A stretch of DNA of 17,438 nt, taken from the NCBI GenBank assembly GCA_016209865.1, contig JACQVL010000012.1, forward strand, positions 1-17,438, given 5' to 3'. The position numbers and the translations under genes were made by a program. The DNA comes from Candidatus Latescibacterota bacterium. Lineage in GTDB: Bacteria > JAAXHH01 > JACQVL01. The notes under the pieces are model-generated. The model was not told the DNA's origin, ran no database searches, and saw only the letters and a list, made by a program, of their open reading frames with translations. This document shows positions 1 through 13,993 of the stretch, in pieces (within the stretch, counting starts at the first letter, position 1; the number at the start of each line of letters is the position of its first letter).

Positions 1-162
1 CGTCCTGAGCGCCTCGACGGGAGACAGAGCGGTGAGGACACGGTACTCGGTCTCCCATTGAAGAAACGACGCCAGGCTTCGGGTGACCATCTCTTCGTCA
101 TCGACGATCATCACGACCGGTTGTCGCGCTCGTCCTGTCGTATTCAGGAAGGAATCGTTCAT
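1..162 (-). CDS. Response regulator receiver domain, N-terminal part only (runs off left edge)
   Basis: Fifty-four codons are visible, from an ATG at 162-160 to the window edge. The protein reads as the first strand and helix of a CheY-like receiver domain: a hydrophobic strand (VVMIV, residues 16-20), then the acidic pair D21-D22 followed by E23-E24, which in this family bind Mg2+ at the phosphorylation site. The segment IVDDEEMVTRSLASFL resembles IVDDEDMVLSSLSAFL in the receiver gene at 638-1144, so the two are probably paralogues. The phosphoacceptor Asp and any output domain lie outside the window. A GGAG element 6 bases upstream of the ATG supports the start, and only 13 bases separate it from the stop of the preceding cNMP-fold gene, so it is the tenth visible gene of the operon. 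Receiver assignment is secure; output is unknown. Confidence 0.85.
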   Translation of the reverse strand, partial: MNDSFLNTTGRARQPVVMIVDDEEMVTRSLASFLQWETEYRVLTALSPVEALRT

Positions 163-175
163 CCGCACTCCTCGA

Positions 176-625
176 CTACGTGGCGCTCCTTGCGGTCTGC
201 TCTACCCCGACACGTCCCGCCAGCCCGCGGAGCCGCTTGACCAGGGTCATCAGGACCCCTCGGATAATCTCTACGTGATCCGAGAGCAGGTCGATAAAGT
301 CTTCTTTGTCGATCCGGAGCAGCCGTGTGTCTTCTATGGCGAGCGCGGTAACCACGCGGGGTTCGTCATCGAAGAGCGCCCAGACACCCAGGGCCTCTTT
401 CGGGCCGGCGACCGCGACCTCCATCCCCTCCCGGTGCAGTCGCACCCGTCCGTCGACGACCAGGTACATCGCATCCGACGCATCCTGCTCCCGGTAGATC
501 GTCGTCCCGCTCACCACCGAGACCTCCTCGGCGATCGCCGCTAAGTAGGCCAGGTGTTCGGTGGAGACTTCACCAAAAACCTCGACGTTCTGCAGAAACA
601 TCACTTTTTCGATGGTCGTGAGCAT
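176..625 (-). CDS. Cyclic nucleotide-binding-fold (CRP/cNMP-type) protein without DNA-binding domain
   Basis: This 149-residue protein is essentially one cNMP-binding beta-roll with a C-terminal helix. Visible landmarks are the N-terminal helix (FLQNVEVFGEVSTEHL), a VVDGRVRLHREG beta-hairpin (56-67) and a phosphate-cassette-like stretch at 74-97. There is no helix-turn-helix, so it is not a CRP-type transcription factor. The cassette is degenerate: where binders usually have FGE and R-S/T-A, this protein has L79-G80-V81 and R90-V91-V92, so the usual ribose-binding Glu is missing. It may therefore bind another ligand, or none. Start choice: an AAGGA about 9 bases upstream favours ATG at 625; an in-frame TTG at 634 would touch that element. 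It lies 12 bases after the receiver gene. In related bacteria such domains can be fused to the C-terminus of NTT-HEAT transporters like the one two genes upstream, which suggests a functional link. Confidence 0.8.
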   Translation of the reverse strand: MLTTIEKVMFLQNVEVFGEVSTEHLAYLAAIAEEVSVVSGTTIYREQDASDAMYLVVDGRVRLHREGMEVAVAGPKEALGVWALFDDEPRVVTALAIEDTRLLRIDKEDFIDLLSDHVEIIRGVLMTLVKRLRGLAGRVGVEQTARSAT

Positions 626-637
626 CGAGCACAATCC

Positions 638-1144
638 TTACGCGAACGTCTTCAGAATCTCCCGCTGGATGTTCTGGAGTTCCGCGTACGCCTGGTGAAT
701 CTCTGTATACGCCTGATTGATCTCGTCCATCTTCTGTTGAAGCTGTTTCATGAGCTGCTGTTTTTCCAGGCCATTCCTGATGATGATCAGCAAGTCATCG
801 TTCTCCCACGGCTTTTCGATGTACTGGTACAACCCGACTTCGTTGATCGCCCGGATCGCGTTCTCTTTATCGGCATACCCGGTCAGGATAATCCGCGGCA
901 CCTCGGGTTTGAGTTTTCTGACGTGCGCTAAAAAAGTGATCCCGTCCATCTCAGGCATCAGATAGTCCGAGATGACCAGGTCCACCCTGGCATCCTGGAC
1001 GTACTGCAACGCGGCTTTTGCCGAGGTGAACGGGATGACGGCATACGACGTCTCCAACTTCAAGAACGCGCTCAGGCTGGATAAGACCATATCCTCATCG
1101 TCGACGATGACGAGGATGGGACTCTCGGTTGACTCGGTCATCAT
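638..1144 (-). CDS. Single-receiver response regulator with C-terminal coiled coil
   Basis: This 168-residue protein has a complete CheY-like receiver domain at about 9-125: acidic pair D15-D16, phosphoacceptor D60 in VISDYLMPEMDG, T88 in ILTGYAD and K111 in IEKPW. The EKPW ending is common in stand-alone and RpfG/HD-GYP-type receivers. Residues 125-165 are Gln/Glu/Lys-rich with regular hydrophobic spacing, which looks like a coiled coil, and contain a repeat (QAYTEI, then QAYAEL). There is no DNA-binding or enzymatic output domain, so phosphorylation probably acts through protein contacts or dimerisation. AGGAG upstream fits better with the second of two adjacent ATGs (1141) than with 1144. 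It begins 9 bases after the stop of the HEAT-fused transporter and is followed after 12 bases by the cNMP-fold gene. No histidine kinase is in the window. Confidence 0.9.
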   Translation of the reverse strand: MMTESTESPILVIVDDEDMVLSSLSAFLKLETSYAVIPFTSAKAALQYVQDARVDLVISDYLMPEMDGITFLAHVRKLKPEVPRIILTGYADKENAIRAINEVGLYQYIEKPWENDDLLIIIRNGLEKQQLMKQLQQKMDEINQAYTEIHQAYAELQNIQREILKTFA

Positions 1145-1151
1145 GGGCTCC

Positions 1152-1179
1152 TGTCAGTCCGTGGTCAGTGGTGGATGAC
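1152..1179. repeat. Degenerate 7-bp-period repeat at transporter/receiver junction
   Basis: Four consecutive 7-base units can be read on the plus strand; the two middle ones are CCGTGGT and CAGTGGT. The block covers the last codons and stop of the HEAT-fused transporter and the spacer before the receiver gene. The repeat is degenerate, and its period is not a multiple of three, so it is not selected as a peptide repeat. Confidence 0.5.
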
Positions 1180-3943
1180 CCTGTCCCGATACGTCGCTCA
1201 GCACCATCGAGGCCGTCTCGCGCACGACCGGGTCCGGGTCGTGCCGGGCTTCCTCGATCAGGGGAACGATCTCCGTGGGCACGGGCCGGGTGATCGTGTA
1301 CAACGCGCACGCCCGCAGCCAGGCATCATGACCGTGAATCAGGCACGCCAACGCCTGTTCTCGCCGCTCGATGCGCTGTCCGAAAAGTTCCTGGCCCTTG
1401 TGGATCGTGTCATCCACGGAAACCGGATCGAGGATGGGAAAGAGGTATCGTTTGGCCTCGTTGCGCAGCACGTTGTCTAAAAACTCCAGCGCGCTGGCGC
1501 GCACCGCCTGGTTCTGGCTGATCATCCCCTGGTAGGCATGATAGATGTCGCGTGGCGGATACTGGAGGCCCAGGAGACGGAACATCAGCTCAACCTGCTC
1601 CTGCTGCTTCTCAGCGAGCGCCCGGTTGAGGAGCGCGATAGCCGGGCCATCGGGCGGGTCGCGGTACAGCGACCGGACCTGCACGATCTCATAATACGTC
1701 CTGGCCTCGTCGATCAGGGCGCGGTTCACCGCGTTCGGGTCGATGCGCAGGGCGGGGTATTGCACGCGCAATGTATTCAGCGCTTTGACGACCGGGTACT
1801 TGAGCGAACGGGGCACCCGTTCGATGTGATCCAGCAGCAGGTCGACCGACTCCTGGGTCGGGATGGCGCGCAGTACACGAGGAACGTCCCGGCGGATGGC
1901 GAGGTCGACGGTCTCATCGATCAGGTAATCACGCAACGTCCCCAGGACACGCGGCCCGAACGCGGCCAGAGCGCGGCGGGCGTTCGCCCGATGCTGATGG
2001 TCGGCGAGTTTGGCGAGCAGGATGGGCACAAACAGGCGATCCTGCGTCTGACCGGCGCTCTGGATCGCTCGGCTGGCCACGACCGGGGATGGGTCCTCCA
2101 TCAGCCGCATCACATACGTCCGCAGGTTCGGCAGGTTCAGCGCGCCTAACGCCCTGGCGACCTGGACCCGCACACGCTCACCGTCCCGTCCATCCCGGCT
2201 CAGGAGAGATTGGATCATCTTTTCATCGACGAGCCGGCGCTCCTCCGGCGCGCGGTGTTCCGCGATGCACACCACGGCGGCGGATTGTACCTGAGGGTCC
2301 TGGTGTTCGAGATACCCGCGCAATCGCCGCAGACGGTCGCCCTCCGTCTGCCGGCAGAGGAGGGACATCGCCTCGAGACTCACCTCTGGGTCGTCATCGT
2401 TCAACAGACGTTCTAAGTCAGCCACCGCGACCTCTAACTCCTGAGTGTGGAGCGTGCGCAGGGCCTTCAGGCGGACTTCAGCCGACCGATGCGCCAGGAG
2501 AGGTTGGACTGACGGGAGCAGGTCTACGCCTTGCGCGGACGCGAGCAGGTCGAGGGCGTAGACGACCTGCCGTTCGTTCTGACTGCTCAGCGCCGCGAGC
2601 AGGGTGTTGACGGTCGATGCCTCCCCGATGCTCATCCTGATCTCGCCCAGGTCGATCTCACGCCGTTCTAACGCTTTGCGGAACGCGTTCACGTACTCCT
2701 GGCGGACGCGGAGCGCGAAGACCACCCACACCGCCGCGAGGGCGATGACGACGAGGCTAAGGGAGCGGGTCGAGAGTCCGAGCGCGCCCGTGAACAGGAG
2801 CAGCAACACGCCGCTGACGCCCTGTGCCCACTGATCGACGAACACATCGATCACCACTTTCGTCCGCTTCTTCAGGTCCAGGGGCACCGGGAGGAACAGC
2901 AATTCCAGCCCCGTCTTGTTGATCGAATACCGGAACGTCTGGTCCGCGCCCCGTAACACCACCCCTGTCCACAGCCCCGGCGCGATGAACATCGCGGCCG
3001 ACCCCAGGACCAGGCTGCCGGGGAGGAACAGGATCGCGCCGCCCACCCCTAGGACTCTGAGGAATCGGGAAGTCAGGAGCAGTTGGACGAGCAACGTCAC
3101 CAGCCCGACACGGCCGTAGAATTGTCCCAGGAACGCGGTCAGCGCGGCCTTGGTGGGGAAGGCAGCCAACGAGATGGTCTTGAACTGGAAATCGACGAAT
3201 GACGTCACCATCACCATCGTCGAGATAATTCCTACGATGAACATCAACTGCCGGGAACGACGAATCGGGTTGAAGAGCTGACGCAGGGTCTCCTGGCCGC
3301 GCTCCTCGGTATAGACCGGGACCGGGCGTTCCGGGTCTGCCGTTCCCCTGAGCGACCAGACGGCGTTGAGGAGTCCGATGCAGACGGCCAGGAATCCGAC
3401 TCCGAAGAAGAGCAGGTTCTCCGTATGCACTCCGAAGCGCTGGACGATGAGGCTCGTCACCTCGCCGCCGGTCGTCGCCCCTAAGATGCCGCCGACGTTC
3501 AACAACGGGAAGAGCCGTTTAGCCTGTGCCGGGTTGAACACGGTATTCGCGCACAGCCAGAACTGGGAGGTGATCAGTACCCCGTAGATGCTCACCCAGA
3601 CGTAGAACGCATAGTACACCCAGGTCTGGTCGAGGGGAATCAGCCAGCGAAACAGGACGAGGTTGACGATGAGCACCGCGGTGGTCGCGTTGATCAGCCG
3701 GACGAGGCCGAAGGAGCGTGACGCTCTGATATAGAAGATCGTCACCGGCAGGACGATGACCGCGATGAGGATGAAGGTGAGAGGAAGGCGCTGCGCCCCG
3801 AGCCGGGTCAGGAACAGACTGTCTCGCGCCGGCTTGAGAAAATAGTTCGTGACCAGCGCCAGGTAGTAATAGCTGAACATCAGGGCGGTCAGCGCCCGCT
3901 CCCCTTTGCGGATGTCGATGAACGAACCGAAGAGCCGTCTCAT
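1154..3943 (-). CDS. NTT/ADP-ATP-translocase-like membrane transporter fused to a HEAT-repeat domain
   Basis: This is a 929-residue two-part protein. Residues 1 to about 415 are a polytopic membrane domain with roughly 10-12 hydrophobic segments, of the nucleotide-transporter-like branch related to MFS carriers. The first segment leads into KPARDSLFLTRLGA (37-50), which resembles the KPVREALILTGGGAE motif (52-66) of the transporter at 4994-6352. Residues about 445-920 are soluble helical repeats of HEAT type, with units such as DDDPEVSLEAMSLL and HDPDPVVRETASMVL. NTT proteins exchange ATP/ADP or other nucleotides; the substrate and direction here are unknown. The ATG overlaps the upstream stop in an ATGA arrangement (3943-3940), so translation is probably coupled to the phosphatase gene. 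The last codons and stop fall in a 7-bp-period repeat. The membrane-HEAT architecture is firm; nucleotide transport is inference from the family. Confidence 0.8.
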   Translation of the reverse strand: MRRLFGSFIDIRKGERALTALMFSYYYLALVTNYFLKPARDSLFLTRLGAQRLPLTFILIAVIVLPVTIFYIRASRSFGLVRLINATTAVLIVNLVLFRWLIPLDQTWVYYAFYVWVSIYGVLITSQFWLCANTVFNPAQAKRLFPLLNVGGILGATTGGEVTSLIVQRFGVHTENLLFFGVGFLAVCIGLLNAVWSLRGTADPERPVPVYTEERGQETLRQLFNPIRRSRQLMFIVGIISTMVMVTSFVDFQFKTISLAAFPTKAALTAFLGQFYGRVGLVTLLVQLLLTSRFLRVLGVGGAILFLPGSLVLGSAAMFIAPGLWTGVVLRGADQTFRYSINKTGLELLFLPVPLDLKKRTKVVIDVFVDQWAQGVSGVLLLLFTGALGLSTRSLSLVVIALAAVWVVFALRVRQEYVNAFRKALERREIDLGEIRMSIGEASTVNTLLAALSSQNERQVVYALDLLASAQGVDLLPSVQPLLAHRSAEVRLKALRTLHTQELEVAVADLERLLNDDDPEVSLEAMSLLCRQTEGDRLRRLRGYLEHQDPQVQSAAVVCIAEHRAPEERRLVDEKMIQSLLSRDGRDGERVRVQVARALGALNLPNLRTYVMRLMEDPSPVVASRAIQSAGQTQDRLFVPILLAKLADHQHRANARRALAAFGPRVLGTLRDYLIDETVDLAIRRDVPRVLRAIPTQESVDLLLDHIERVPRSLKYPVVKALNTLRVQYPALRIDPNAVNRALIDEARTYYEIVQVRSLYRDPPDGPAIALLNRALAEKQQEQVELMFRLLGLQYPPRDIYHAYQGMISQNQAVRASALEFLDNVLRNEAKRYLFPILDPVSVDDTIHKGQELFGQRIERREQALACLIHGHDAWLRACALYTITRPVPTEIVPLIEEARHDPDPVVRETASMVLSDVSGQGHPPLTTD

Positions 3944-4986
3944 CGCGGGGGTCCTATCGACCGCGCCCAGAGTTCGCGCCCGGTCTGATCGCAGAACACG
4001 ACCAGCAACTCATCGTGCGTGAGGCGGCACCAGGCGAAACCGGGCGAGGCCGACGCGAACAGGGTATTCCATCGCCAGCGGACGGACCGGGGGCGTGCTC
4101 CCGCACCGCTGACGAAGTAGTGCACCCCGTTCGAGGGTCTGATGGCCTGCAACGCATGGTCATGGCCGGAGAACACAGCCTGCACCCCGTAGCGTTCTAA
4201 GAGGGGAACCAGCCAGAAGAGCAACTGCTCGGCGTCTCCGTGTTTCCCGTTCGAGAACAACGGATGATGGCTGACGACGATCTTCCACCGGGCTCGGCTC
4301 GTCGCCAATTCACGCTCGAACCAGGCGAGCTGGGCGTGTTCCGCGGCCGTCGAGTCCTGCAGCAGCATCGTCGTGTCGAGCGCGAAGAACTGCACGGCCG
4401 TCGACTCGGTGACAGCTTTCGAGAACGTATAGTAGCGGGCTTCCATCGACCAGCGTCCCGTCCCCTTCCGATGGTAGGCCACCTGGGCGGCGACGTTCCC
4501 CCGGTAGTCGTGGTTCCCCAGGACCATGAAAAACGAGATCGGGAATCGACCCGGGTCGTAGACCTGCTCAAACTTCGACTGCCATTGCGGGTCGTCGATC
4601 CCGGTCACCCCGTCCGGGTAGAAATTGTCCCCCGTCCCGATCACAAAATCCGCCCCGCGATCCGTCCGCGCGACGATCCCGGCCATGCCGTCCGCCACGG
4701 CCCGCTGGCTGTTCCCGCCCGTTCCCCAATCCCCGAAGACCAGGAACGTCAGACGTGGAGTCTGTGGCGGCAGGGGCGCGATCTGGGGGGGAGAAAGCCG
4801 CAGGACCGCGCCGAGAATGTCATACCGGACTCGCGCCGGACTGCAGGCTGGTGAAAGAACACACCACCCCAGAACGTAGAGGACGAGCCAGAAGATCGTG
4901 AACCGTCCGCCCCGCTTCTCGCTGAACGCGGAACGATGGAAGATGAACGATGAATGAAGGCCGGGCTGTGCTCGTTGTTTATTCAT
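3940..4986 (-). CDS. Exported tartrate-resistant (purple) acid phosphatase-like metallophosphoesterase
   Basis: This 348-residue calcineurin-like phosphoesterase is close in pattern to type-5 (tartrate-resistant) purple acid phosphatases. Dinuclear metal ligands are all visible: D86 (FGDWG), D120 and Y123 (GTGDNFYPDG; the Tyr is the Fe(III) ligand that makes these enzymes purple), N158 with catalytic H159 (GNHDYRGN), H240 (SHHP), H275 and H277 (SGHDH). GNVAAQVAY and GVHYFVSGAGA match positions conserved in animal TRAP. An N-terminal hydrophobic stretch (about 29-46) with a Cys at 48 suggests export, either as a lipoprotein with a poor lipobox or as an anchored protein. The only possible ATG (4986) is inside a 7-bp-period repeat, so the first 24 or so residues are repeat-encoded. 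There is no good ribosome-binding site; it starts 7 bases after the transporter stop and overlaps the next gene by ATGA. A phosphoprotein or phosphomonoester substrate is possible but unproven. Confidence 0.88.
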   Translation of the reverse strand: MNKQRAQPGLHSSFIFHRSAFSEKRGGRFTIFWLVLYVLGWCVLSPACSPARVRYDILGAVLRLSPPQIAPLPPQTPRLTFLVFGDWGTGGNSQRAVADGMAGIVARTDRGADFVIGTGDNFYPDGVTGIDDPQWQSKFEQVYDPGRFPISFFMVLGNHDYRGNVAAQVAYHRKGTGRWSMEARYYTFSKAVTESTAVQFFALDTTMLLQDSTAAEHAQLAWFERELATSRARWKIVVSHHPLFSNGKHGDAEQLLFWLVPLLERYGVQAVFSGHDHALQAIRPSNGVHYFVSGAGARPRSVRWRWNTLFASASPGFAWCRLTHDELLVVFCDQTGRELWARSIGPPR

Positions 4987-5015
4987 TCCGCATTCAGCGT
5001 TCCGCGTTCAGCGTT
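4918..5015. repeat. Two facing 7-bp-period repeat blocks with a 16-bp inverted repeat
   Basis: The left block (4925-4959) has five 7-base units, for example AACGATG at 4932 and again at 4946. The right block (4981-5015) has five units, CAGCGTT occurring at 4995 and 5009. The blocks are in opposite orientation: CGCTGAACGCGGAACG at 4920-4935 is the exact reverse complement of 4998-5013. The left block lies inside the phosphatase coding region. The right block holds the transporter C-terminus and stop and the phosphatase start codon. The RNA could fold into a 16-bp stem with a 62-base loop that contains the phosphatase start. Confidence 0.75.
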
Positions 5016-6352
5016 GCCGTTGTCGTCAGTGCCCGGTGCTCGCGGGCAATCCCGGCCGCGAACAGCAGCCACAGGAGGACGAGACCGATGTTCACCACCG
5101 CAAAATTCCTCACCCCCAGGCCGAGCAGTCCGGCGCCCACGAACACCGTCACCCCCGACAGCATATCCCCGGTGCGCCAGAAGAACGTATCCACCGCCTG
5201 CTTCGCCTTGTACTTGGCCTCGCGGCTGGTGGGGAGGAAGAGGGCGTGCCGGACCGTGTTCTGCAACGAGTAGTCGGTGCTGTTTTCGAGGATCTTGGCG
5301 ACCCGGATGTAGGCGAGGATGGGCGCGGCCGCGAGCACCCCATAGCCGCAGAGGGAAATGGCGGGCATGATGAACAACGCCCGGCGGACGTCCAGGTATT
5401 TGAGGATGCGGGACACGAAGAACATCTGAAAGAGCGCGCCCAACAGGTTCTGCCAGAACTGGAAGTCGGCGTAATAGCCGCCGATGAGCTGGCGTTCGGA
5501 CAGACCCCCCGCCGTGCCAGCGGCCACCGCTTCCCCCGCCACCCGGCTGAACGTCTTGCCCAGGATGTATTCCCCGTTCGTGTTGACGACGTTGATGATG
5601 AGTGTCAGCAGGCCGATGAACAACAAGTAACGATGATGAATGACGAGTTGAAAGCCTCCGTCTTTGCTGAGCGGCTGATCCGCCTGTTGGCGCATGAAAG
5701 GGTGTTGAGCGCGATCTTTCTCACGAGAATGGATGACGTTCGTCAGCACCAGACACACCGCCAGGATGGTGGCGGAGACGAGCATCATCAGGAAGGCGTC
5801 GAGCGATTCAAACAGCAGACCGGCCGCCTTCGAGCCGGCGACCGCGCCCACCGAGCTGCCGACCCCCACGATGGCGAACAGCCGTTTTCCCTGTTCCGGG
5901 GTGTACAGGTCGTTGGCGAACGACCAGAACTGCGCGATGATCATCACGTTAAAAATACCGACCCAGAGGAAAAACGGAATGCCCAGCGGAACGCCAGCCT
6001 TGCCGAGCAGGAAGAAGAGAGCTAAGTTGGCGATAAAGAACAGGGAGACGCCGTTGATCAGCCGGATGCGATTCACTTTACTGGCAAACGCCCCGTAGGC
6101 CGGGACGATGAACAAGAAGAGGAACGCCTGCACCGCCCCGGTGTAACTCTTGATCTCCGCGCCGCCGCCCGTCAGGATGAGGGCTTCACGCACCGGCTTG
6201 ATGATGTAGTAGGCGGTCAGCAGCAAGAACACGTTGAGCGTCAGCAGCAGAGCGGTGGCCGCTTCCCCTGCCTCGACTTCGGCGACCGGCCTCATCACCC
6301 GATCCAGCCAGGTTCTGTCGGGTATGGCCACTGACGGGACTGTCGTCGACAT
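4994..6352 (-). CDS. NTT/ADP-ATP-translocase-like membrane transporter
   Basis: This 452-residue polytopic protein has a cytoplasmic N-terminus of about 30 residues and some 10-12 hydrophobic segments. The motif IIKPVREALILTGGGAE (50-66), right after the first membrane segment, matches the NTT-like signature also seen in the HEAT-fused transporter of this operon. EQGKRLFAIVGVGSSVGAVAG parallels AQAKRLFPLLNVGGILGATTG in that protein, supporting common ancestry. The N-terminal domain aligns, but this protein has no HEAT tail. Family members exchange nucleotides; the cargo here is not determined. A GGGAGG element 6 bases before the ATG makes the start convincing. The C-terminal residues (ATLNAER) and the TGA are encoded by a 7-bp-period repeat that continues into the following phosphatase gene, only 7 bases away. 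It lies 58 bases downstream of kinase-like lipoprotein B. Confidence 0.82.
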   Translation of the reverse strand: MSTTVPSVAIPDRTWLDRVMRPVAEVEAGEAATALLLTLNVFLLLTAYYIIKPVREALILTGGGAEIKSYTGAVQAFLFLFIVPAYGAFASKVNRIRLINGVSLFFIANLALFFLLGKAGVPLGIPFFLWVGIFNVMIIAQFWSFANDLYTPEQGKRLFAIVGVGSSVGAVAGSKAAGLLFESLDAFLMMLVSATILAVCLVLTNVIHSREKDRAQHPFMRQQADQPLSKDGGFQLVIHHRYLLFIGLLTLIINVVNTNGEYILGKTFSRVAGEAVAAGTAGGLSERQLIGGYYADFQFWQNLLGALFQMFFVSRILKYLDVRRALFIMPAISLCGYGVLAAAPILAYIRVAKILENSTDYSLQNTVRHALFLPTSREAKYKAKQAVDTFFWRTGDMLSGVTVFVGAGLLGLGVRNFAVVNIGLVLLWLLFAAGIAREHRALTTTATLNAER

Positions 6353-6392
6353 CGCAGCCTCCCTCTATTCATTGCGGAATGACGTTCCTACG

Positions 6393-6427
6393 ACTCCTGA
6401 CCACCGCTCTTCACTCTTCCCGCTCAA
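6393..6427. repeat. Degenerate 7-bp-period repeat at lipoprotein B/transporter junction
   Basis: Five 7-base units are readable on the plus strand, with CTCTTCA (6407) and CTCTTCC (6414) the closest pair. The block encodes the last residues and TGA of the kinase-like lipoprotein (minus strand) and part of the spacer to the transporter. Confidence 0.5.
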
Positions 6428-8177
6428 TACCGGCCAGCTTAAACCCCTGTTCCGGTCGCTGGTAGAGTAGATGGGCTCTGACCCATTTCCCCCATTGCGC
6501 TTCAGGCGTGCGTCGAGTAAAGATTTTCAAGTAGAATAACCGATCCCCCGGCGTCGTCGCGCTGTGCTGATCGCACCACGTGGCCACTTCAGCCAGGAGT
6601 GCCGGAGAGAGCACGATGGTCGTCGTGCTCCCGGTCGTCTGGGCGGGGATCACCGGCATCGTCGGGGACGAGGCGGCCGCGCCGCCGACCTTCAACATCT
6701 CATCCACTCCCCCAAAATCGTTGTGCATCAGGACGAACCGGTACGCTGTCCCATCCGCCGCCTCGAACCCCGCCTCCACCGCTAAGTCGACGAACCGCAC
6801 GACCTGGCCGCCATCGGGAGTGGGGGTCACCGTAAACCGATCGAGCGGGTTGACCCGGCGGTACCAGTACCGGCCGATCTGGTCACGCCGCGCGATGAGC
6901 GTCTCGATCATGTACGCGGTCGCGGTCGGGTCGCTGTACTGCGCCTGCTTCACGATGCCCTCGATCTTCTCGTTCGACAGCGACATCACTAATCGGGCTC
7001 CCCAGAACCCATCCCGGTTCGTCATGCGCTGGAAGGCCAGGTTCGGGTAGGCCGGTTTCCAGCGGTGGGGATGGAACCGATCGTTGCTGAAGATGCCGAT
7101 CGACGGGGGAACAGGAGCCGGGCTGGCCCGTTGCCAGCGATGCTGGTAGAGGCCCAGGCCGAGGAGTGACTTCGACATCTCCGCGAAATCGAGCCGGTAC
7201 TCGTACCCGTTGCTGGGCAGGTCAGCCCCGACCGCCGCGCTCCCCAGAGTCGACCCGAAATCGATCAGGTAGTGACGAAGGTAGCCCTCCTGTGTATACA
7301 TGTCCAGCGAATTGATCCGCCGGATATCGTCATGGTTGATGAAGGCGGCGACGACCCGCAACCCTCGAAGTTCTCTCCGGTGCTCCTGGGGGAAGACATC
7401 GTTCGGGTCTGTCTTGCGCATCCGGATGTACGCAAACGGGCCTTTAGGCTTTCCCGGCAGGTATTTGCTGGCGATCGCCCGAATCCGCCCGTCAGGCATG
7501 CGGGGAACTCGTCGCAGGATGCGCTCCAGATCCTCCTCCGTGAACGCCCGTTCCCGGCCGAACTGGTCGGTGACCATCACGTTCCCGGTGATTCGTAACT
7601 GATCGGGCGTGAAGAACACCAGGTAATTCTCCGGTACGTTGTACCCGGCGGCGTAGACCAGCTTGGTCGAGATGACCTCGGCCCCAGTCGCCAGCTCAGA
7701 GTTGGTCGGCGGGTCGAACTTCAGCAGATAAGTGTCTCCCCGTCTGTCGCGGATCGTGAACCCGGGCGTCACCCCCTGCGTCTTCGCCCCCCTGACCTCC
7801 CACGTCCGGGTCTGATCCGGGCCATCCAGGGTATCCGGACCGCATAAAGCCTCCCCGACAGAGAGGGTCAACGCCCGGTTCGTGAACCAGGTCGAATTGG
7901 GGACTTCGTCGAACGCATCGACGTTCATCGCCTGCTTCGGCTGACCGACCAGCCGCCGGACCTGCCGGGGGAGGTCCAGCCACCCCTTAATCTGTTTGAA
8001 GAGGGATCGATCTACAAAATCGTAATACTGGTTGGGGTCGTGCTTCGGCGGTTCAGGGATGGGTGTCCGGTCCTGAAATTCCAGAAGCGGGCCCGCCAGC
8101 AGCAGTTCTTTCGACGGCCCGCATCCCAGCGCAGACCAGCCGATCAACACCAGTAAAATCAATGAAGAGTGGAACAT
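6411..8177 (-). CDS. Predicted lipoprotein with protein-kinase-like fold (copy B); family not recognised
   Basis: A 588-residue predicted lipoprotein: hydrophobic segment 5-18 ending in ALGC (C19). It is a clear paralogue of the protein at 9609-11267. I know no named family for it, but kinase-fold landmarks occur in order: GVTPGFTIRDRRG (135-147) followed by YLLKFDPP with K153; E167 in a helix before AAGYNVPE; NHDDIRRIN with H282, D284 and N289, spaced like the HRDxxxxN catalytic loop; and LIDFG (D306-G308). The G..GF.I.D..G..Y..KF.P layout resembles PI4K- and HipA-type kinases more than Ser/Thr kinases. The C-terminal 200 residues share WKPxYP, FWG and RRDxIGRYW blocks with the paralogue. 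Start: ATG 8177 gives a clean signal peptide; an ATG at 8228 would add 17 residues encoded by a 7-bp repeat and is less likely. Kinase activity, substrate and ATP use outside the cytoplasm are inference. Confidence 0.72.
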   Translation of the reverse strand: MFHSSLILLVLIGWSALGCGPSKELLLAGPLLEFQDRTPIPEPPKHDPNQYYDFVDRSLFKQIKGWLDLPRQVRRLVGQPKQAMNVDAFDEVPNSTWFTNRALTLSVGEALCGPDTLDGPDQTRTWEVRGAKTQGVTPGFTIRDRRGDTYLLKFDPPTNSELATGAEVISTKLVYAAGYNVPENYLVFFTPDQLRITGNVMVTDQFGRERAFTEEDLERILRRVPRMPDGRIRAIASKYLPGKPKGPFAYIRMRKTDPNDVFPQEHRRELRGLRVVAAFINHDDIRRINSLDMYTQEGYLRHYLIDFGSTLGSAAVGADLPSNGYEYRLDFAEMSKSLLGLGLYQHRWQRASPAPVPPSIGIFSNDRFHPHRWKPAYPNLAFQRMTNRDGFWGARLVMSLSNEKIEGIVKQAQYSDPTATAYMIETLIARRDQIGRYWYRRVNPLDRFTVTPTPDGGQVVRFVDLAVEAGFEAADGTAYRFVLMHNDFGGVDEMLKVGGAAASSPTMPVIPAQTTGSTTTIVLSPALLAEVATWCDQHSATTPGDRLFYLKIFTRRTPEAQWGKWVRAHLLYQRPEQGFKLAGIEREE

Positions 8178-8203
8178 AGCGTCTTCTGGCCTCCAGTTGT
8201 CGG

Positions 8204-8238
8204 TTTTCACTCTTAACCCTTCCCTCATTACTCTTCCC
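8204..8238. repeat. Degenerate 7-bp-period repeat between barrel B and lipoprotein B
   Basis: Five 7-base units run in register; TCTTAAC at 8211 and TCTTCCC at 8232 show the pattern. On the transcribed (minus) strand the block is purine-rich (GGGAAGAG, AGGGAAG) and contains an ATG (8228) that opens a 17-codon extension in frame with the lipoprotein. It may act as a source of ribosome-binding sites. Confidence 0.6.
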
Positions 8239-9584
8239 TAAAAATCGCTCTCCAGTTTCACCGAAAACCGGGTCATCTCCGGACTGTGAGCGACGTTCAG
8301 GCGTGCGAGGACGCCGGACTTTGTTCGGAACCGCAGTCCGGCGCCGTAGTCCGTCGCCAGAGCGCGGAGCGCAAACCCATCGCCCGTGGGAGACACCATC
8401 CCCGTGTCGACGAACCAGATGACGTCCAGAGCGGTGCGATTCCATCCGATATCCCACAGCGGATACCGGTATTCCGCGTTGAGAAGCACCGCGTTCCGGT
8501 CCCAGAACCGCAAGTCCGCATACCCCCGGAGGGTGGTCGAGCCCCCTAAACGGGGCATGACAAAGAACGGAATCTGTCTCTTCCCTCTAGGATCAACCAT
8601 CGAGCCCACAAACCGGAACACTAGGATTCGATCTCCCCAGAACATCGGGACAGTCTGGTAGAGGGTGAGGGTATACCGGTTGAACCCGTACCGGGTGCCG
8701 TCCACATCCCAGTACGTGTGGACGGCGACCTTGATACCTCGTTCTGATCCGGCGAGACCCTGATAGAGTCGTTCAGGGTACGCTGCCTCGAAGCCCGCGC
8801 CCATCAGCCTCGCTCCGCTCAGTCCGGGCAGGTCGGGAAATCGACTGATGGTCGATGGGTACAACTGTCCTCCCCCGGCGTCGATGTCGAAGTCCGTCCA
8901 ATCGATCAGACCGGAGACCTGGAGCCTGCTGAGCCGGTACGACAGGGCCAGGCCGGTGTGCAGTCTGGCCTGCTGGAATTGCGTGTGATCCTGAGCGAGC
9001 GTCTGCGCGCCAGTCCCGAAGAAATTCTCACGCGGCCGCGCCTGGTACTCGACCCATCCCGTGATGTCCCCATGACGACCGGCGATCCCTGAGAAACGCA
9101 GATGAAGGGCATGGGTCTGGTACGTCCGGAGCGTCAGGGCAGAGGAGACGGCGATCTCGACGGGACGGGTCTGACCGACCGCCCCCTGGAGGCCCACGGC
9201 CACTCCAAACCCCGATCCATCCCCCTGGGAGCCGTTCTCGACGACGATGTGGCGCCGGACGAGCCACGGTGGAATCTGTTGAACCCGTGCGGTCACATGA
9301 TGGGCTTCGATGACGTTGAGGCCTTTTCGCATCAAGTAGCCGGTCGTCTTAAACGGCAGTTCGAGGAGGGTGATCGGAAGTCGCGCGGCATGCTCCCACA
9401 CTGGCCGCCCCTTCCTCGGCAGGAGGAGCGGATGGATCGGAATCATCCCTGGCTCCGACAGGTTGATGGCCACTCCAACGGAATCAGCCTCAGACTGAGG
9501 GTACCCAGCCCAGACTGCCGGGATGAACGCCCCCAAGAGCAGGAGTCCGAGCAGCAGAGATTTCTGTCGCCAGGAGAGATGCAT
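8238..9584 (-). CDS. Omp85-superfamily outer-membrane beta-barrel without POTRA domains (copy B)
   Basis: This 448-residue protein has a signal peptide (1-26, ending AVWA). Alternating beta-strand patterns run from about 110 to a terminal Phe (DF), as expected for a BAM-inserted barrel. The stretch LGGSTTLRGYADLRFW (346-361) followed by LNAEYRYPLWDI matches the surface-antigen (Omp85/BamA/TamA C-terminal) domain, with LRGY as the loop-6 motif. PRENFFGTGAQT (184-195) is another usual feature. No POTRA domains fit in the 80 or so residues before the barrel; instead there is a predicted helix (LPITLLELPFKTTGYLMRKG, 69-88) that has a counterpart in barrel A. It sits between the two kinase-like lipoprotein genes, 24 bases after one (all of it repeat) and 9 bases before the repeat that precedes the other. 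Likely roles are partner-lipoprotein translocation or surface display, or a channel; none is shown. Confidence 0.85.
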   Translation of the reverse strand: MHLSWRQKSLLLGLLLLGAFIPAVWAGYPQSEADSVGVAINLSEPGMIPIHPLLLPRKGRPVWEHAARLPITLLELPFKTTGYLMRKGLNVIEAHHVTARVQQIPPWLVRRHIVVENGSQGDGSGFGVAVGLQGAVGQTRPVEIAVSSALTLRTYQTHALHLRFSGIAGRHGDITGWVEYQARPRENFFGTGAQTLAQDHTQFQQARLHTGLALSYRLSRLQVSGLIDWTDFDIDAGGGQLYPSTISRFPDLPGLSGARLMGAGFEAAYPERLYQGLAGSERGIKVAVHTYWDVDGTRYGFNRYTLTLYQTVPMFWGDRILVFRFVGSMVDPRGKRQIPFFVMPRLGGSTTLRGYADLRFWDRNAVLLNAEYRYPLWDIGWNRTALDVIWFVDTGMVSPTGDGFALRALATDYGAGLRFRTKSGVLARLNVAHSPEMTRFSVKLESDF

Positions 9585-9585
9585 A

Positions 9586-9606
9586 ACAACCGACCACCGA
9601 CCACCG
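9586..9606. repeat. 7-bp-period repeat filling the gap between lipoprotein A and barrel B
   Basis: Three 7-base units are present, two of them identical (ACCACCG at 9593 and 9600) and one variant (ACAACCG at 9586). The block makes up nearly the whole 24-base gap between the two genes, so it also forms the leader of the barrel B start codon. Confidence 0.6.
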
Positions 9607-9608
9607 CC

Positions 9609-11267
9609 TCAATCCGTCCGGCGGACGCCGATGACGCGCCAGCCGTTGGGTTGAGGTTTGAGATAGACCAGCACCGGTCTTGCCTTGTAACGCTGACGTT
9701 GCGGGACGAGCGACAGCACAACGTGCGGATGAGTGTTCCAGGCCGGGTCGAGTCGCACCGTCGTCTCGTCCTGCGTGTCCTTGCAAAGGGTCGCCCCGGC
9801 GGGAGTGAGCGCCTCGACCTGGTAGCGCGTCCCCCGCGCATCCGCGTAGCCACGTGAGACCGCAAGGTCGGTGAACCGAAGCGTCGATCCGTCCAGCATC
9901 TCGAACCGATCCAGCGTATTCACGCGCGCAAACCAGTACCGGCCGATCCGGTCACGCCGCTCCTTCAGGAATTTGACGAGATACGCCGCCGCCTGCGGGT
10001 CGGAGAATGCCCCGGTGGTGACGGCGGCCTCGATCTGCTCATCCGTGAATGAGGTCACGATGTTCGTCCCCCAGAACGCATCCCGCCTGGTCAGGTTCTC
10101 GAACGCGGGCATGGGGTACATCGGCTTCCATCTGTTGGGTTTGAAGAGGTCGTTCTCCAGGTAGCCGACGGATGGGTACCGGAGGGTGAGGGGCGCCTTC
10201 TCATACCCGTACACATACAGGCCGAGGGTGATCAGCCGGACGAACGAGTGTTTGGCGTCGAAACTGTTCGCCTGGCCGCGCCGCGGGGTGCTGGGGGTCG
10301 TGCTGGAGCTCCCCATCGACGCGCCGAAGTCGATCAGGTAGTGGGTGAGGTAACGCTTCTCCGGGTCGTACATGTCGAGGGTGTTCTCTTCTTTCATATC
10401 GGCATGGTTGAGCCAGGAGGAGATGATGTACAGCCCGCGCAGTTCCCGTCGGTGCTCGTGAGAGTAGAAGTCGTTCGCATCGTCCATCCGGACGCCGAGA
10501 TACGGCCAGGGGCCGACATCGGTCCCGTCCAGAAAGCGGCTCGCCCCCACCCGCACGCGCGGCTGTCCGGTGGGGTTCGCCTTCTTGAGGAGGGCGGCCA
10601 GGTCGGCTTCCGTCATCTGGCGTTTGCTGATGGGCGCTCGCTTATCCCCGGTCTCCATCGTGATCGTCGCCTGCGGGCTGAGGACGAGCCGGTCAGGACG
10701 CAGGTAGCTCACGGAGTACTCCGGCACGTGATACCCGGCCGCATAGCACAGCCGGCTGGCCACCGCCTCCGTCCCGCTGGCCAGCTCAGGGTAGCCAGGG
10801 GGATCGAACTTGATCAAATACCGCTGGCCTTTCGCGTCCATGATCGTGAACCCGGGGGTGACGCCCGCGGATTTGCCCTTCACTACCGTCCACACGCCCG
10901 ACGTATCAGGGCCGCCCATCCGGCTCGGACCCCGGCGGATCGCGTCTAACGACATCGGCGCTCTCCCGTTCCGATGGGTGAACCAGGTCGAATTCGACAC
11001 CTCGCCAAACGCATCGACGTTCAACGCTTCGTACGGTTTCCCCGCCGCCTTGCGGGCGCCCCGGGGCAGATCGAACGCCTGTTTAATCTGGTAGTCGAAC
11101 GATTTGTCGAGGATTTCCAGGACGAGCTTCGGGTCGCGTGCTGTCGGGAGCGGAATCGCCTGGGTGTCCGTCTCCATCGGGGGATCCGGAGGAAGGAACA
11201 GACGGCTGCTGCCGCATCCGGCCGCCAGGATGACGGCCAGGAAGAGAACGCGATGCGCACGGGACAT
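9609..11267 (-). CDS. Predicted lipoprotein with protein-kinase-like fold (copy A); family not recognised
   Basis: A 552-residue predicted lipoprotein: hydrophobic 7-17, ending LAAGC with C18. It is paralogous over its full length to 6411-8177, sharing NVDAF, NSTWFT, GVTPGFTI, KFDPP, YAAGY, HRRELRGL, NRWKP/HRWKP and RRDRIGRYW blocks. Kinase-like positions are conserved exactly where expected: K153 (LIKFDPP), E167 (GTEAVAS), H288, D290 and N295 (NHADMKEEN, which even has the Lys two residues after Asp that Ser/Thr kinases carry) and D313-F314-G315 (LIDFG). The start is ATG 11267, 4 bases after the barrel A stop, giving a normal signal peptide; the reading frame is open up to 11414 but that would overlap the barrel gene by over 140 bases. 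No strong ribosome-binding site, so coupling to barrel A is likely. A periplasmic or surface kinase, or a pseudokinase scaffold, fits; the substrate is unknown. Confidence 0.74.
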   Translation of the reverse strand: MSRAHRVLFLAVILAAGCGSSRLFLPPDPPMETDTQAIPLPTARDPKLVLEILDKSFDYQIKQAFDLPRGARKAAGKPYEALNVDAFGEVSNSTWFTHRNGRAPMSLDAIRRGPSRMGGPDTSGVWTVVKGKSAGVTPGFTIMDAKGQRYLIKFDPPGYPELASGTEAVASRLCYAAGYHVPEYSVSYLRPDRLVLSPQATITMETGDKRAPISKRQMTEADLAALLKKANPTGQPRVRVGASRFLDGTDVGPWPYLGVRMDDANDFYSHEHRRELRGLYIISSWLNHADMKEENTLDMYDPEKRYLTHYLIDFGASMGSSSTTPSTPRRGQANSFDAKHSFVRLITLGLYVYGYEKAPLTLRYPSVGYLENDLFKPNRWKPMYPMPAFENLTRRDAFWGTNIVTSFTDEQIEAAVTTGAFSDPQAAAYLVKFLKERRDRIGRYWFARVNTLDRFEMLDGSTLRFTDLAVSRGYADARGTRYQVEALTPAGATLCKDTQDETTVRLDPAWNTHPHVVLSLVPQRQRYKARPVLVYLKPQPNGWRVIGVRRTD

Positions 11268-11271
11268 GCGA

Positions 11272-12561
11272 TCAGAACCCGGTGTTGAAGTTGAAGATGA
11301 GCCGGAGTTGTTCGGAGCTGCGTGCGACCAGGACTTCGAACACCGGACCGTTCTGGTCCCAGACACGCAGTCCTCCGCCCAACGAGTCTTTCCAGTCACG
11401 GAACGAGAAATCACGCGGATGATGGAAGGGACGACCTGTCTCGTAAAAAATGAACCCGTTTAACACCCGCCAGATCGGAAATTTATACGTCGCCGTGGCG
11501 AACACGACCCCGCGGTCACGGAAGCGGCCGCGAGGAAAGCCCCGGAGCAGTTCTTCCCCACCGATGGACGCCAGGCCGTAGAACGGCACCCCGCTGTCCC
11601 CTACCGGGACAGTCCAGTCTGTTCCGAGGCGGAGGGAGACGACACGGTCGTAGAACAGTTCGAGAAACTGTTCACTGATGGCGGTGAGGCGGAGGTTGCT
11701 GAACGCGTCGTCATCGACTGATCGGTTGTAGCCCAGGCGGAAGAAGGAGAGGTTGCCGCGAGTCGGGTATCCGGGATGATCGAGGAACTGAACGCGGAGG
11801 AAGACGGCGCCTTCAGCGAAGTCCCCACGATTTGCCAGACCGGTCAGCGTCTTCTCGGTGAACAGGCTGTCCGTATTGGGCAGGGCGGGGTTCTGGCCTG
11901 AGCGGATATCGACGGAATGGTAATTGGCGTCGACGCCCACGGCCACCACCCGGCTCGACCGCTGCCGGTAGATGAACTGGACGAGGATGTCTTCCTGGAG
12001 AAAATCGTTGGCCGAAGATTTCAGGACGTTGGGGCCGATGCCGTAGAACAGCTCTTTCGGCCGGTTGCGGTACTGTCCGGCGAACGTGAGACTCCCCGGG
12101 ACGAGCCGGCCGTCAGGCCAGGAGAGGGTGAACAGGTAGTCCTGGCGCGGCCAGCCGCCCCATCGGGCGAGCAGACGGGCATCCCCCTTCAGCATCATGT
12201 CCCGGTGGAAGAAACGGATTCCAGCCCCGCTGGTCGAGTTGGCCAGCGGCCGGACCCCCGCCCGGCCGTCGGTGGTCGTCAGCCAGGCTTTGTAGCGATC
12301 AAAAATCCGATCTTCCCAGATCGCGCTGACGCCATACTCCAGGGCTAAAAATGCCCCGTGAATCGGCAGATAGACCAACATGCCGGGGAACGCCGCGACC
12401 TCTTCCCCGGTCGAACGATGCGCGATGATACGCCGACGAGGCACGGCACGGCTTGAGTCGCTCTTCGTGCTCTCGTGCGCCAGGGACAGCGTGGACGGCC
12501 AGACTGTCAGGACGAGGCTGAGCCACATCAGCCGCGCGTTCCACCCGGATAACCGCTTCAT
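11272..12561 (-). CDS. Omp85-superfamily outer-membrane beta-barrel without POTRA domains (copy A)
   Basis: This 429-residue exported barrel is the first gene of the operon. The signal peptide is about 1-28 (hydrophobic WLSLVLTVWPS, probable cut after SLA). The mature protein has an 80-residue linker and then beta-strands to a terminal Phe (NTGF). Omp85 signatures are KELFYGIGPN (169-178), GGEELLRGFPRGRFRDRG (334-351, LRGF loop-6 motif), ATYKFPIW and a Gly-rich GGGLRVWD near the end. No POTRA domains are present. FPGMLVYLPIHGAFLALEYG (58-77) corresponds to a helix in barrel B. The overall sequence is strongly diverged from barrel B, so the duplication is old or the two have different partners. 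The ATG at 12561 lacks a clear purine-rich ribosome-binding site. It follows the promoter at 12642-12670 by about 75 bases of leader. Confidence 0.84.
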   Translation of the reverse strand: MKRLSGWNARLMWLSLVLTVWPSTLSLAHESTKSDSSRAVPRRRIIAHRSTGEEVAAFPGMLVYLPIHGAFLALEYGVSAIWEDRIFDRYKAWLTTTDGRAGVRPLANSTSGAGIRFFHRDMMLKGDARLLARWGGWPRQDYLFTLSWPDGRLVPGSLTFAGQYRNRPKELFYGIGPNVLKSSANDFLQEDILVQFIYRQRSSRVVAVGVDANYHSVDIRSGQNPALPNTDSLFTEKTLTGLANRGDFAEGAVFLRVQFLDHPGYPTRGNLSFFRLGYNRSVDDDAFSNLRLTAISEQFLELFYDRVVSLRLGTDWTVPVGDSGVPFYGLASIGGEELLRGFPRGRFRDRGVVFATATYKFPIWRVLNGFIFYETGRPFHHPRDFSFRDWKDSLGGGLRVWDQNGPVFEVLVARSSEQLRLIFNFNTGF

Positions 12562-12718: not shown

Positions 12719-12749
12719 TGCAATTATGCATTTTAAATGCATAATTGCA
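12719..12749. repeat. 31-bp near-perfect palindrome upstream of the DUF4143 gene
   Basis: Two 15-base arms (12719-12733 and 12735-12749) are exact reverse complements around a single T at 12734; the left arm is TGCAATTATGCATTT. It is strongly AT-rich compared with its surroundings and ends 20 bases before the ATG at 12770. It contains TTGCAA (12719) and CATAAT (12740), spaced 15 bases apart, which could serve as a promoter, so it may be an operator. No T-run follows in a way that would make it a terminator. Confidence 0.7.
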
Positions 12750-12769
12750 TAACAGATGGAGAAGAGGAT

Positions 12770-13993
12770 ATGCCCCCTCGCTATCTCACACGCGCCCTGG
12801 AACCCGTCCTGAAACGGGCCGCCGGGGAATTCCCGGCTGTGGTGCTGACCGGACCACGCCAATCCGGGAAGACGACCCTCCTCACGCATCTGTTCGGAAC
12901 GAGCCACGTCTACGTCTCGCTTGAACCCCCAGACGTCCGGATGGCCGCCATGGCCGACCCACGCGGATTTCTGGCGATGTATCCGCCGCCAGTCATCTTC
13001 GACGAAGTCCAGTATGCCGCCGACCTCCTGCCTTACATCAAAGAACGCATCGATGTGCGACGCTCAGCGCGGGGACAGTACCTCCTCACCGGGTCGCAAC
13101 ACCTGCTCCTCATGGCGCGCGTGACCGAGTCACTGGCCGGGCGGGCGGCGATGCTGCGGCTCTTGCCGCTCTCCCAGCGTGAGGCCCTGGAGCGGCCGGA
13201 TACTCCACTACCCTGGGACACGCCGCGCGGCCAGTCCTCCCGTCGAGAACTCGCATACCGCGGCCTGTGGACAAGTTTCCTGCGCGGCGGCTACCCGGAG
13301 CTGGTCGCCGAACCGACGCGGGATCACGGGCTCTGGCACGCAAGCTATATCCAGACGTATCTCGAACGAGATGTCCGGGCTCTCCGGCAGATCGGAGACC
13401 TCACCCTCTTTCAGAATTTTCTGCGGGCCCTGGCCTCCAGGAGCGGACAACTCCTGAACCTGACCGACCTCGCCCGCGACCTCGGAGTGGCCGTCAACAC
13501 CGCGAAGGCGTGGCTCTCGGTGCTGGAGGCGACGTTTCAGGTGATCGTGCTGCGGCCCTACTTCGCCAACGTCGGCAAACGACTGGTGAAGACTCCGAAA
13601 ATCTACTTCATGGACACCGGGACCCTCTGTTACCTCGCCGGCCTCAAAGACCCCGGCCACGCAGCCTCCGGGCCGATGGGGGGAGTCATCTTCGAGACGG
13701 CGGTCCTCGGAGAGATCGTCAAGACCCTCGTCCACCGCGGCGTGGACCCACAGGTGTATTTCTGGCGAACCTCCTCCGGGACGGAAGTGGACCTCCTCGT
13801 CGACACCGGCAAGCGGCTCATCCCCCTCGAGGTCAAACTCTCCGCCACACCGCGGCCCGCCATGGCCGATCCTCTCAACACCGTGCGGTACGATCTGGGT
13901 GACAAGGCCGGCCCCGGATACCTCATCCACCCCGGCGATGTCCGGCTGCCGCTGGCCCCAGGGGTGACGGCGCTCCCGTTCGCCGACCTCTGA
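12770..13993 (+). CDS. AAA-type ATPase with DUF4143 C-terminal domain
   Basis: This 407-residue protein belongs to the abundant AAA_14/DUF4143 ATPase family, whose cellular role is not settled. The P-loop is GPRQSGKTT (28-36), Walker B is VIFDE (75-79) and a sensor-like LLTGSQ lies at 105-110. A helix-turn-helix-like segment (LTDLARDLGVAVNTAKAWL, 231-249) follows. The C-terminal domain has FET (308-310), GTEVDLLVD (337-345) and PLEVK (352-356), resembling a PD-(D/E)xK nuclease fold with D341, E354 and K356, as is usual for this family. GGAG 8 bases and AGAGG 3 bases before ATG 12770 fix the start; an in-frame ATG at 12737 lies inside the palindrome and is unlikely. The gene is divergent from the large operon. 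These genes are often horizontally moved as single units, and no partner is seen here. Confidence 0.9.
   Translation: MPPRYLTRALEPVLKRAAGEFPAVVLTGPRQSGKTTLLTHLFGTSHVYVSLEPPDVRMAAMADPRGFLAMYPPPVIFDEVQYAADLLPYIKERIDVRRSARGQYLLTGSQHLLLMARVTESLAGRAAMLRLLPLSQREALERPDTPLPWDTPRGQSSRRELAYRGLWTSFLRGGYPELVAEPTRDHGLWHASYIQTYLERDVRALRQIGDLTLFQNFLRALASRSGQLLNLTDLARDLGVAVNTAKAWLSVLEATFQVIVLRPYFANVGKRLVKTPKIYFMDTGTLCYLAGLKDPGHAASGPMGGVIFETAVLGEIVKTLVHRGVDPQVYFWRTSSGTEVDLLVDTGKRLIPLEVKLSATPRPAMADPLNTVRYDLGDKAGPGYLIHPGDVRLPLAPGVTALPFADL

Follow-up and report, generated by a model that had tools for sequence, protein, structure and literature searches.

In the Fam20C/TRAP system of animals, a kinase and a TRAP-type phosphatase are both located outside the cytosol. 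Roles outside the cytoplasm are also known for the CotH proteins, which belong to the kinase clan. Within the Omp85 superfamily, a subfamily of barrels without POTRA domains ('noNterm') is on record, and another ('Metallo') fuses such a barrel to PF00149, with no function given for the fusion (PMC4104836); the text of that paper mentions neither kinases nor phosphatases. Carriers of the NTT family fused to HEAT repeats (NTT-HEAT), with a cNMP gene downstream, have likewise been described with no assigned function (PMC5381601). The operon presented here takes its parts from these and other known superfamilies and as a whole fits no known kind of system; we infer that it encodes an undescribed extracytoplasmic phosphorylation module. 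A literature search found no described system that joins these parts and no description of this kinase family, which is weak evidence, as the search covered few subscription papers or preprints.

The window, the 17,438-nucleotide stretch of DNA that we analysed, is one whole contig of a 3.75 Mb draft genome. What appears to be this same contig is also present in a genome from the order to which the window belongs. It contains an operon of ten genes, all on the minus strand, running from position 12561 to the contig end at position 1. In the order of transcription, the products are OmpA, KinA, OmpB, KinB, NTT1, a phosphatase, NTT2-HEAT, RR1, a cNMP-binding protein and RR2. OmpA and OmpB are Omp85 barrels, KinA and KinB exported kinase-fold lipoproteins, NTT1 and NTT2-HEAT NTT-family carriers, and RR1 and RR2 receivers; the phosphatase is a purple acid phosphatase of TRAP type. 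The genes are separated by 58 bases at most. In the front half, the gaps are 4 bases (OmpA/KinA), 24 (KinA/OmpB), 9 (OmpB/KinB), 58 (KinB/NTT1) and 7 (NTT1/phosphatase); the phosphatase and NTT2-HEAT genes overlap by 4 bases, and gaps of 9 (NTT2-HEAT/RR1), 3 (RR1/cNMP) and 13 (cNMP/RR2) follow. An earlier, sequence-only reading of this DNA had listed ten same-strand genes with short gaps, a layout that we recovered. Because the window ends with the contig, RR2 is incomplete and the operon may continue. Not part of the operon are the divergently transcribed gene directly upstream (12737-13993), which encodes an ordinary DUF4143/AAA_14 ATPase, and those past it, for a MetE-like protein and a GH2 hydrolase. 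Chance does not account for the operon, as its gene set is found again in many phyla; the operon is conserved in recognisable form over many little-studied ones.

KinA (9609-11267) and KinB (6411-8228) are paralogues with 42% identity and the same catalytic residues in the alignments. Neither reaches a Pfam or NCBIfam cut-off, and the sub-threshold Pfam scores of KinA are 14.4 bits for HipA_C (cut-off 30.5) and 11.1 bits for HipA_2 (cut-off 27). Relatives were sought in species genomes using two search patterns, one of which was HYLIDFG; 80 of the 115 detected were retained, and 77 homologues were aligned. The matches of these 77 to HipA_C and HipA_2 are also weak and sub-threshold (best member, E 0.004). 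Four residues are invariant among them: K153 (the β3 Lys), D290 (the Asp of NHxD), N295 (the Asn five residues on) and D313 (the Asp of IDFG). Invariance of the DFG region is partly built in by the HYLIDFG search pattern, whereas the other three residues were not selected in this way. A hydrophobic N-terminal stretch is present in 76 of 78 homologues and a lipobox-like motif in 38; that of KinA is AAGC, and neither KinA nor KinB has an Asp at +2.

Comparison of the kinase with the PDB by sequence gave nothing useful: up to an E of 1, the profile of the 77 homologues has no match among PDB chains, and thus no similarity at this level to the solved Fam20 proteins. The sequence-only reading had proposed a kinase-like fold for the two lipoproteins and named structure comparison as the test, and here it was borne out. 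The AlphaFold2 model of KinA (pLDDT 94.1, pTM 0.92) has the bilobed kinase fold and the catalytic residues of the HipA/CtkA/PI4KII/Fam20 clan. K153 lies on a strand that is followed by a long helix, and D290 and N295 are flanked by a helix and by the pair of strands leading to the DFG, a placement in the model that is as in kinases. Using VIA-align, CtkA scored highest (Z 14.7, 240 residues aligned, r.m.s.d. 4.5), with PI4KII-alpha at Z 12.1, Hydra Fam20 at 11.3, HipT at about 11 and Fam20C at 9 to 11. The kinase domain (residues 117-448) is followed by a fibronectin type III (FN3) domain (residues 448-540). The family belongs to the kinase-fold clan and, by the tests made, is a member of neither HipA nor Fam20. 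Judged from sequence and model, this exported kinase-fold family, which has no Pfam entry, is probably catalytic.

CtkA and HipA/HipT are therefore the nearest in fold, and the weak HipA_C and HipA_2 matches point the same way. Unlike them, the present kinase is exported, stays below the Pfam cut-offs, carries an added FN3 domain and has no HipB-type partner. No HipB-type antitoxin was found beside KinA or KinB, the neighbours in the window being barrels, carriers and the phosphatase. Export, the sub-cut-off scores and the missing HipB partner lead us to reject a reading of KinA and KinB as HipA of a toxin–antitoxin pair. Compared with Fam20C, the present kinase differs in matching no solved structure by sequence at that E value and in being a lipoprotein with an FN3 domain, a fixed Omp85 partner and NTT carriers in its operon. 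CotH extracellular kinases are a different family.

Degraded paralogues of the kinase occur at two loci. In L088:2106-5408, NHNN stands for NHxD, the β3 residue is Arg and the DFG region reads IDFA; L093:203-3667 has no catalytic Asp, a β3 Thr and IGFG. Both have about 400 to 600 extra C-terminal residues with no Pfam match, and these pseudokinase forms still follow an Omp85 barrel. At L090:2084-5149, L091:44-3154 and L092:1090-4566, further relatives of the kinase behind a barrel carry long extensions at the C terminus, and Pfam recognises nothing in the extensions of L088 and L090-L093. Apparent barrel–kinase fusions, seen as long open frames, proved to be either start-codon artefacts or these C-terminally extended kinases.

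OmpA (11272-12561, 429 residues) and OmpB (8238-9584, 448 residues) both exceed the PF01103 cut-off of 24 bits, with 32.3 and 35.1 bits, and are homologous by alignment. In the model of OmpB (pLDDT 84), the barrel starts at about residue 125 and is preceded by a helical N-terminal part in the place of POTRA; its best Foldseek matches are the barrels of TamA and BamA (E 5e-11). The barrels conserve an LRGF/Y motif, corresponding to the Omp85 RG[F/Y] motif. Pfam finds no POTRA domain in OmpA or OmpB, and the N-terminal part of OmpB is modelled as helices. Since a POTRA-less Omp85 subfamily is known (PMC4104836), this absence does not exclude membership of the superfamily. The window resembles 'noNterm' in its barrels and 'Metallo' in that the window phosphatase belongs to PF00149, whereas barrel, phosphatase and kinase are here separate genes and the kinase is a new partner.

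A feature of the kinase loci is the constancy of the barrel: in 68 of the 73 loci with enough sequence, the gene immediately upstream of the kinase gene, on the same strand, encodes a barrel. The distance matrices of barrel and kinase are strongly correlated (r 0.92, 68 pairs), a value equalled by none of 2000 permutations. In both trees, with support of 1.0, OmpA and KinA group with L008 and L012, and OmpB and KinB with L006 and L041. The nearest named relative of the OmpA–KinA pair is L008, labelled Candidatus Latescibacterota. The two barrel–kinase pairs of the window differ in ancestry. These matched histories, in which partners have stayed together, argue that barrel and kinase form a pair, physically or functionally.

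The phosphatase (3940-4986, 348 residues) is exported, probably as a lipoprotein, and scores 69.1 bits against the Metallophos (PF00149) cut-off of 21.5. It has the five purple-acid-phosphatase motifs (GDWG, GDNFY, GNHD, SHHP and GHDH, including GDxxY), and its family profile matches human and pig TRAP at about E 2e-33. With a kinase of the Fam20 fold clan and a TRAP-type phosphatase side by side, the Fam20/TRAP analogy drawn in the sequence-only reading is apt. In 18 loci, the gene immediately after that of the kinase encodes a phosphatase, and 22 have a phosphatase gene in the same run. Other loci have, at the same position, a second metallophosphatase type without GDxxY. Closely related PAP2-fold phosphatases follow the kinase within about 1.4 kb in L033, L036, L037, L056, L061 and L063, and three further loci have a weaker PAP2 match nearby, giving nine in all within about 1.5 kb. 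The kinase and PAP2 phosphatase genes of L033, L036 and L037 flank a gene for an exported protein of some 420 to 450 residues; that of L036 has no Pfam match. Three kinds of phosphatase therefore occur beside the kinase: PAP-type and non-PAP-type metallophosphatases and the unrelated PAP2 fold. Such repeated recruitment of unrelated phosphatases suggests that the activity itself is wanted at kinase loci.

NTT1 (4994-6352, 452 residues) and NTT2-HEAT (1154-3943, 929 residues) both belong to the NTT/TLC family, with 41.4 and 56.3 bits against the PF03219 cut-off of 21, and the family profile matches the ADP,ATP carriers 9j3n and 9j3j. NTT2-HEAT has C-terminal HEAT repeats (PF13646, 76.1 bits). 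A search of the window for a defence system using PADLOC gave no relevant match, the sole one being weak and to HEAT repeats. RR1 (638-1144; PF00072, 91.9 bits) is a stand-alone receiver with a short coiled tail, and is followed by the cNMP-binding-fold protein (176-634; PF00027, 69.6 bits), in which Pfam finds no DNA-binding domain; both domains exceed the Pfam cut-offs. The second receiver, RR2 (MNDSFLNTTGRARQPVVMIVDDEEMV...; 1-162), was recognised on reading its sequence. The window thus has the NTT domain, C-terminal HEAT repeats and nearby cNMP gene of the NTT-HEAT family, in the same domain order (PMC5381601); it differs from the described cases in the tie to an exported kinase, barrel and phosphatase and in the receiver between the NTT-HEAT and cNMP genes. 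In kinase loci with an NTT-HEAT gene, a cNMP gene and a receiver commonly come next.

The sequence-only reading had the carriers moving ATP or ADP, and this part has found no support so far. In AtNTT1, the charged residues K155, E245, E385 and K527 matter for binding and for ATP/ADP exchange (PMC3306366, PMC10654386). We fixed the AtNTT1 numbering by the sole offset (84) at which each of the four residues matches the PDB chain sequence, and aligned the carriers with those of Arabidopsis and chlamydiae; the K155 region could not be aligned with confidence. At the four positions, NTT1 has T, G, E and D and so keeps only E385, and NTT2-HEAT has T, S, D and Q, with only an Asp for E385 (the first residue being uncertain in both). 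Stand-alone NTTs adjacent to the kinase fall into two classes, which at the last two key positions have Glu and Asp (the window gene at 4994-6352) or Asp and Lys (L013:12962-14275); the second class, absent from the window, has Asp at E245. Characterised NTTs mostly fall in one other clade (PMC5381601). ATP/ADP exchange by the window carriers is therefore not supported by their sequences, and another substrate or mechanism is possible; because these carriers are without most of the charged residues that AtNTT1 needs, ATP export is a guess.

Co-occurrence of the gene set over genomes, also proposed in the sequence-only reading, is seen for the carriers as well as for the barrel. An NTT gene is in the same run as the kinase in 23 of the 69 loci with room downstream, and an NTT-HEAT gene in 17 of 69. 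In Acidobacteriota, PF03219 is present in 31 of 35 kinase-positive and 30 of 164 other genomes (p 3e-15), and in the phylum of L036, labelled Zixiibacteriota, in 30 of 35 and 3 of 97 (p 3e-21), both values being uncorrected for shared ancestry and completeness. Counted in the same genomes, the unrelated control kinase family CotH shows no significant co-occurrence with the present kinase in the phylum tested (p 0.13). A carrier is also present in 17 of 19 other kinase-bearing genomes, a sample chosen mostly for having no carrier beside the kinase. In the Zixiibacteriota-labelled phylum, 18 of 30 genomes have a carrier gene no more than 10 kb from that of the kinase.

We lean slightly towards a model in which the operon encodes an envelope phosphorylation module. 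Each kinase lipoprotein would form a matched outer-membrane pair with the barrel whose gene immediately precedes its own, and that barrel may carry the kinase to the surface, anchor it or be its target. The kinase would phosphorylate a periplasmic or surface target, be it protein, glycan or lipid; targets of the same sort would be dephosphorylated by the exported phosphatase as antagonist. Located in the inner membrane, the two NTT-family carriers would serve the kinase, most simply by delivering the phosphoryl donor or returning its product, and the receivers, cNMP-binding protein and HEAT repeats may tune the carriers from the cytoplasmic side. In L013:3613-8367 and L021:2595-6476, PAS/GAF histidine kinases of 1293 to 1584 residues are encoded directly upstream of the barrel–kinase pair, which fits a regulated output; L010:3704-8440 is a similar open reading frame of 1578 residues bearing a receiver. 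Counted against the module are the many kinase loci in which the adjacent genes are the barrel–kinase pair only. Of the extracytoplasmic phosphorylation first proposed from sequence, the fold and the conserved neighbours stand, and the ATP/ADP supply by the carriers has so far gained no support. With more doubt than confidence, we also put forward a diderm kinase–phosphatase cycle outside the inner membrane, in which dedicated NTT carriers would deliver ATP or another nucleotide, the barrel would display the new kinase family and PAP or PAP2 enzymes would reverse the reaction, as a bacterial counterpart of animal Fam20/TRAP.

The fixed pairing and co-inheritance of barrel and kinase would also be expected if a surface kinase uses extracellular ATP. 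The barrel would then be a dedicated export or display device, a split form of the PlpD arrangement, in which an enzyme is sent through an Omp85-type barrel (PMC4104836); the NTT carriers would import released nucleotides, and the purpose would be to scavenge nucleotide or phosphate or to modify neighbouring cells or matrix. The lipobox-like motifs of KinA and KinB, with no Asp at +2, and the purple acid phosphatase adjoining the kinase are in line with this. Against it, the analysis gave no sign of the side of the outer membrane on which the kinase lies or of the direction of the NTT carriers, and neither a passenger nor POTRA can be recognised in the modelled barrel; we consider this explanation unlikely. 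Alternatively, one operon may hold two independent modules, a barrel–kinase(–phosphatase) envelope module and an NTT-HEAT/cNMP/receiver module, the transport being unrelated to the kinase. NTT-HEAT followed by a cNMP-binding gene is reported in many bacteria without reference to any kinase (PMC5381601), a carrier next to the kinase is absent from many kinase loci, most of the key ATP/ADP residues are missing from the carriers, and the kinase is not present in 30 of the 61 Acidobacteriota genomes that have NTT. This separation nevertheless seems somewhat unlikely given the strong genome-level association of kinase and NTT in two phyla, the presence of the kinase in 30 of 33 NTT-positive genomes of the Zixiibacteriota-labelled phylum and the proximity of carriers to the kinase there, even outside one operon.

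Kinase-fold proteins can catalyse other chemistry, as SelO and SidJ do, and KinA and KinB might transfer another group (AMP or glutamate) or act as scaffolds; SidJ appears low in the Foldseek list, and the family includes the degenerate paralogues described above, which have lost catalytic residues and carry long extensions at the C terminus. We find this improbable, as the β3 Lys, the HxD Asp, the Asn and the DFG Asp are all retained across the aligned homologues, the closest folds are true protein or lipid kinases and phosphatases recur beside the kinase.

The envelope phosphorylation module bears on a basic point of envelope biology. To our knowledge, the usual view is that the periplasm contains no ATP, and a conserved exported kinase with invariant residues therefore raises the question of the source of its phosphoryl donor, for which the operon itself offers candidates. 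The operon also gives a setting for three open items: the role of NTT carriers in free-living bacteria, the role of POTRA-less Omp85 proteins and the association of Omp85 with calcineurin-like phosphatases. The system is directly testable, as barrel, kinase and NTT genes are all present in at least one strain in culture, Edaphobacter aggregans DSM 19364. Together, the operon points to an undescribed bacterial way of phosphorylating something outside the cytoplasm.
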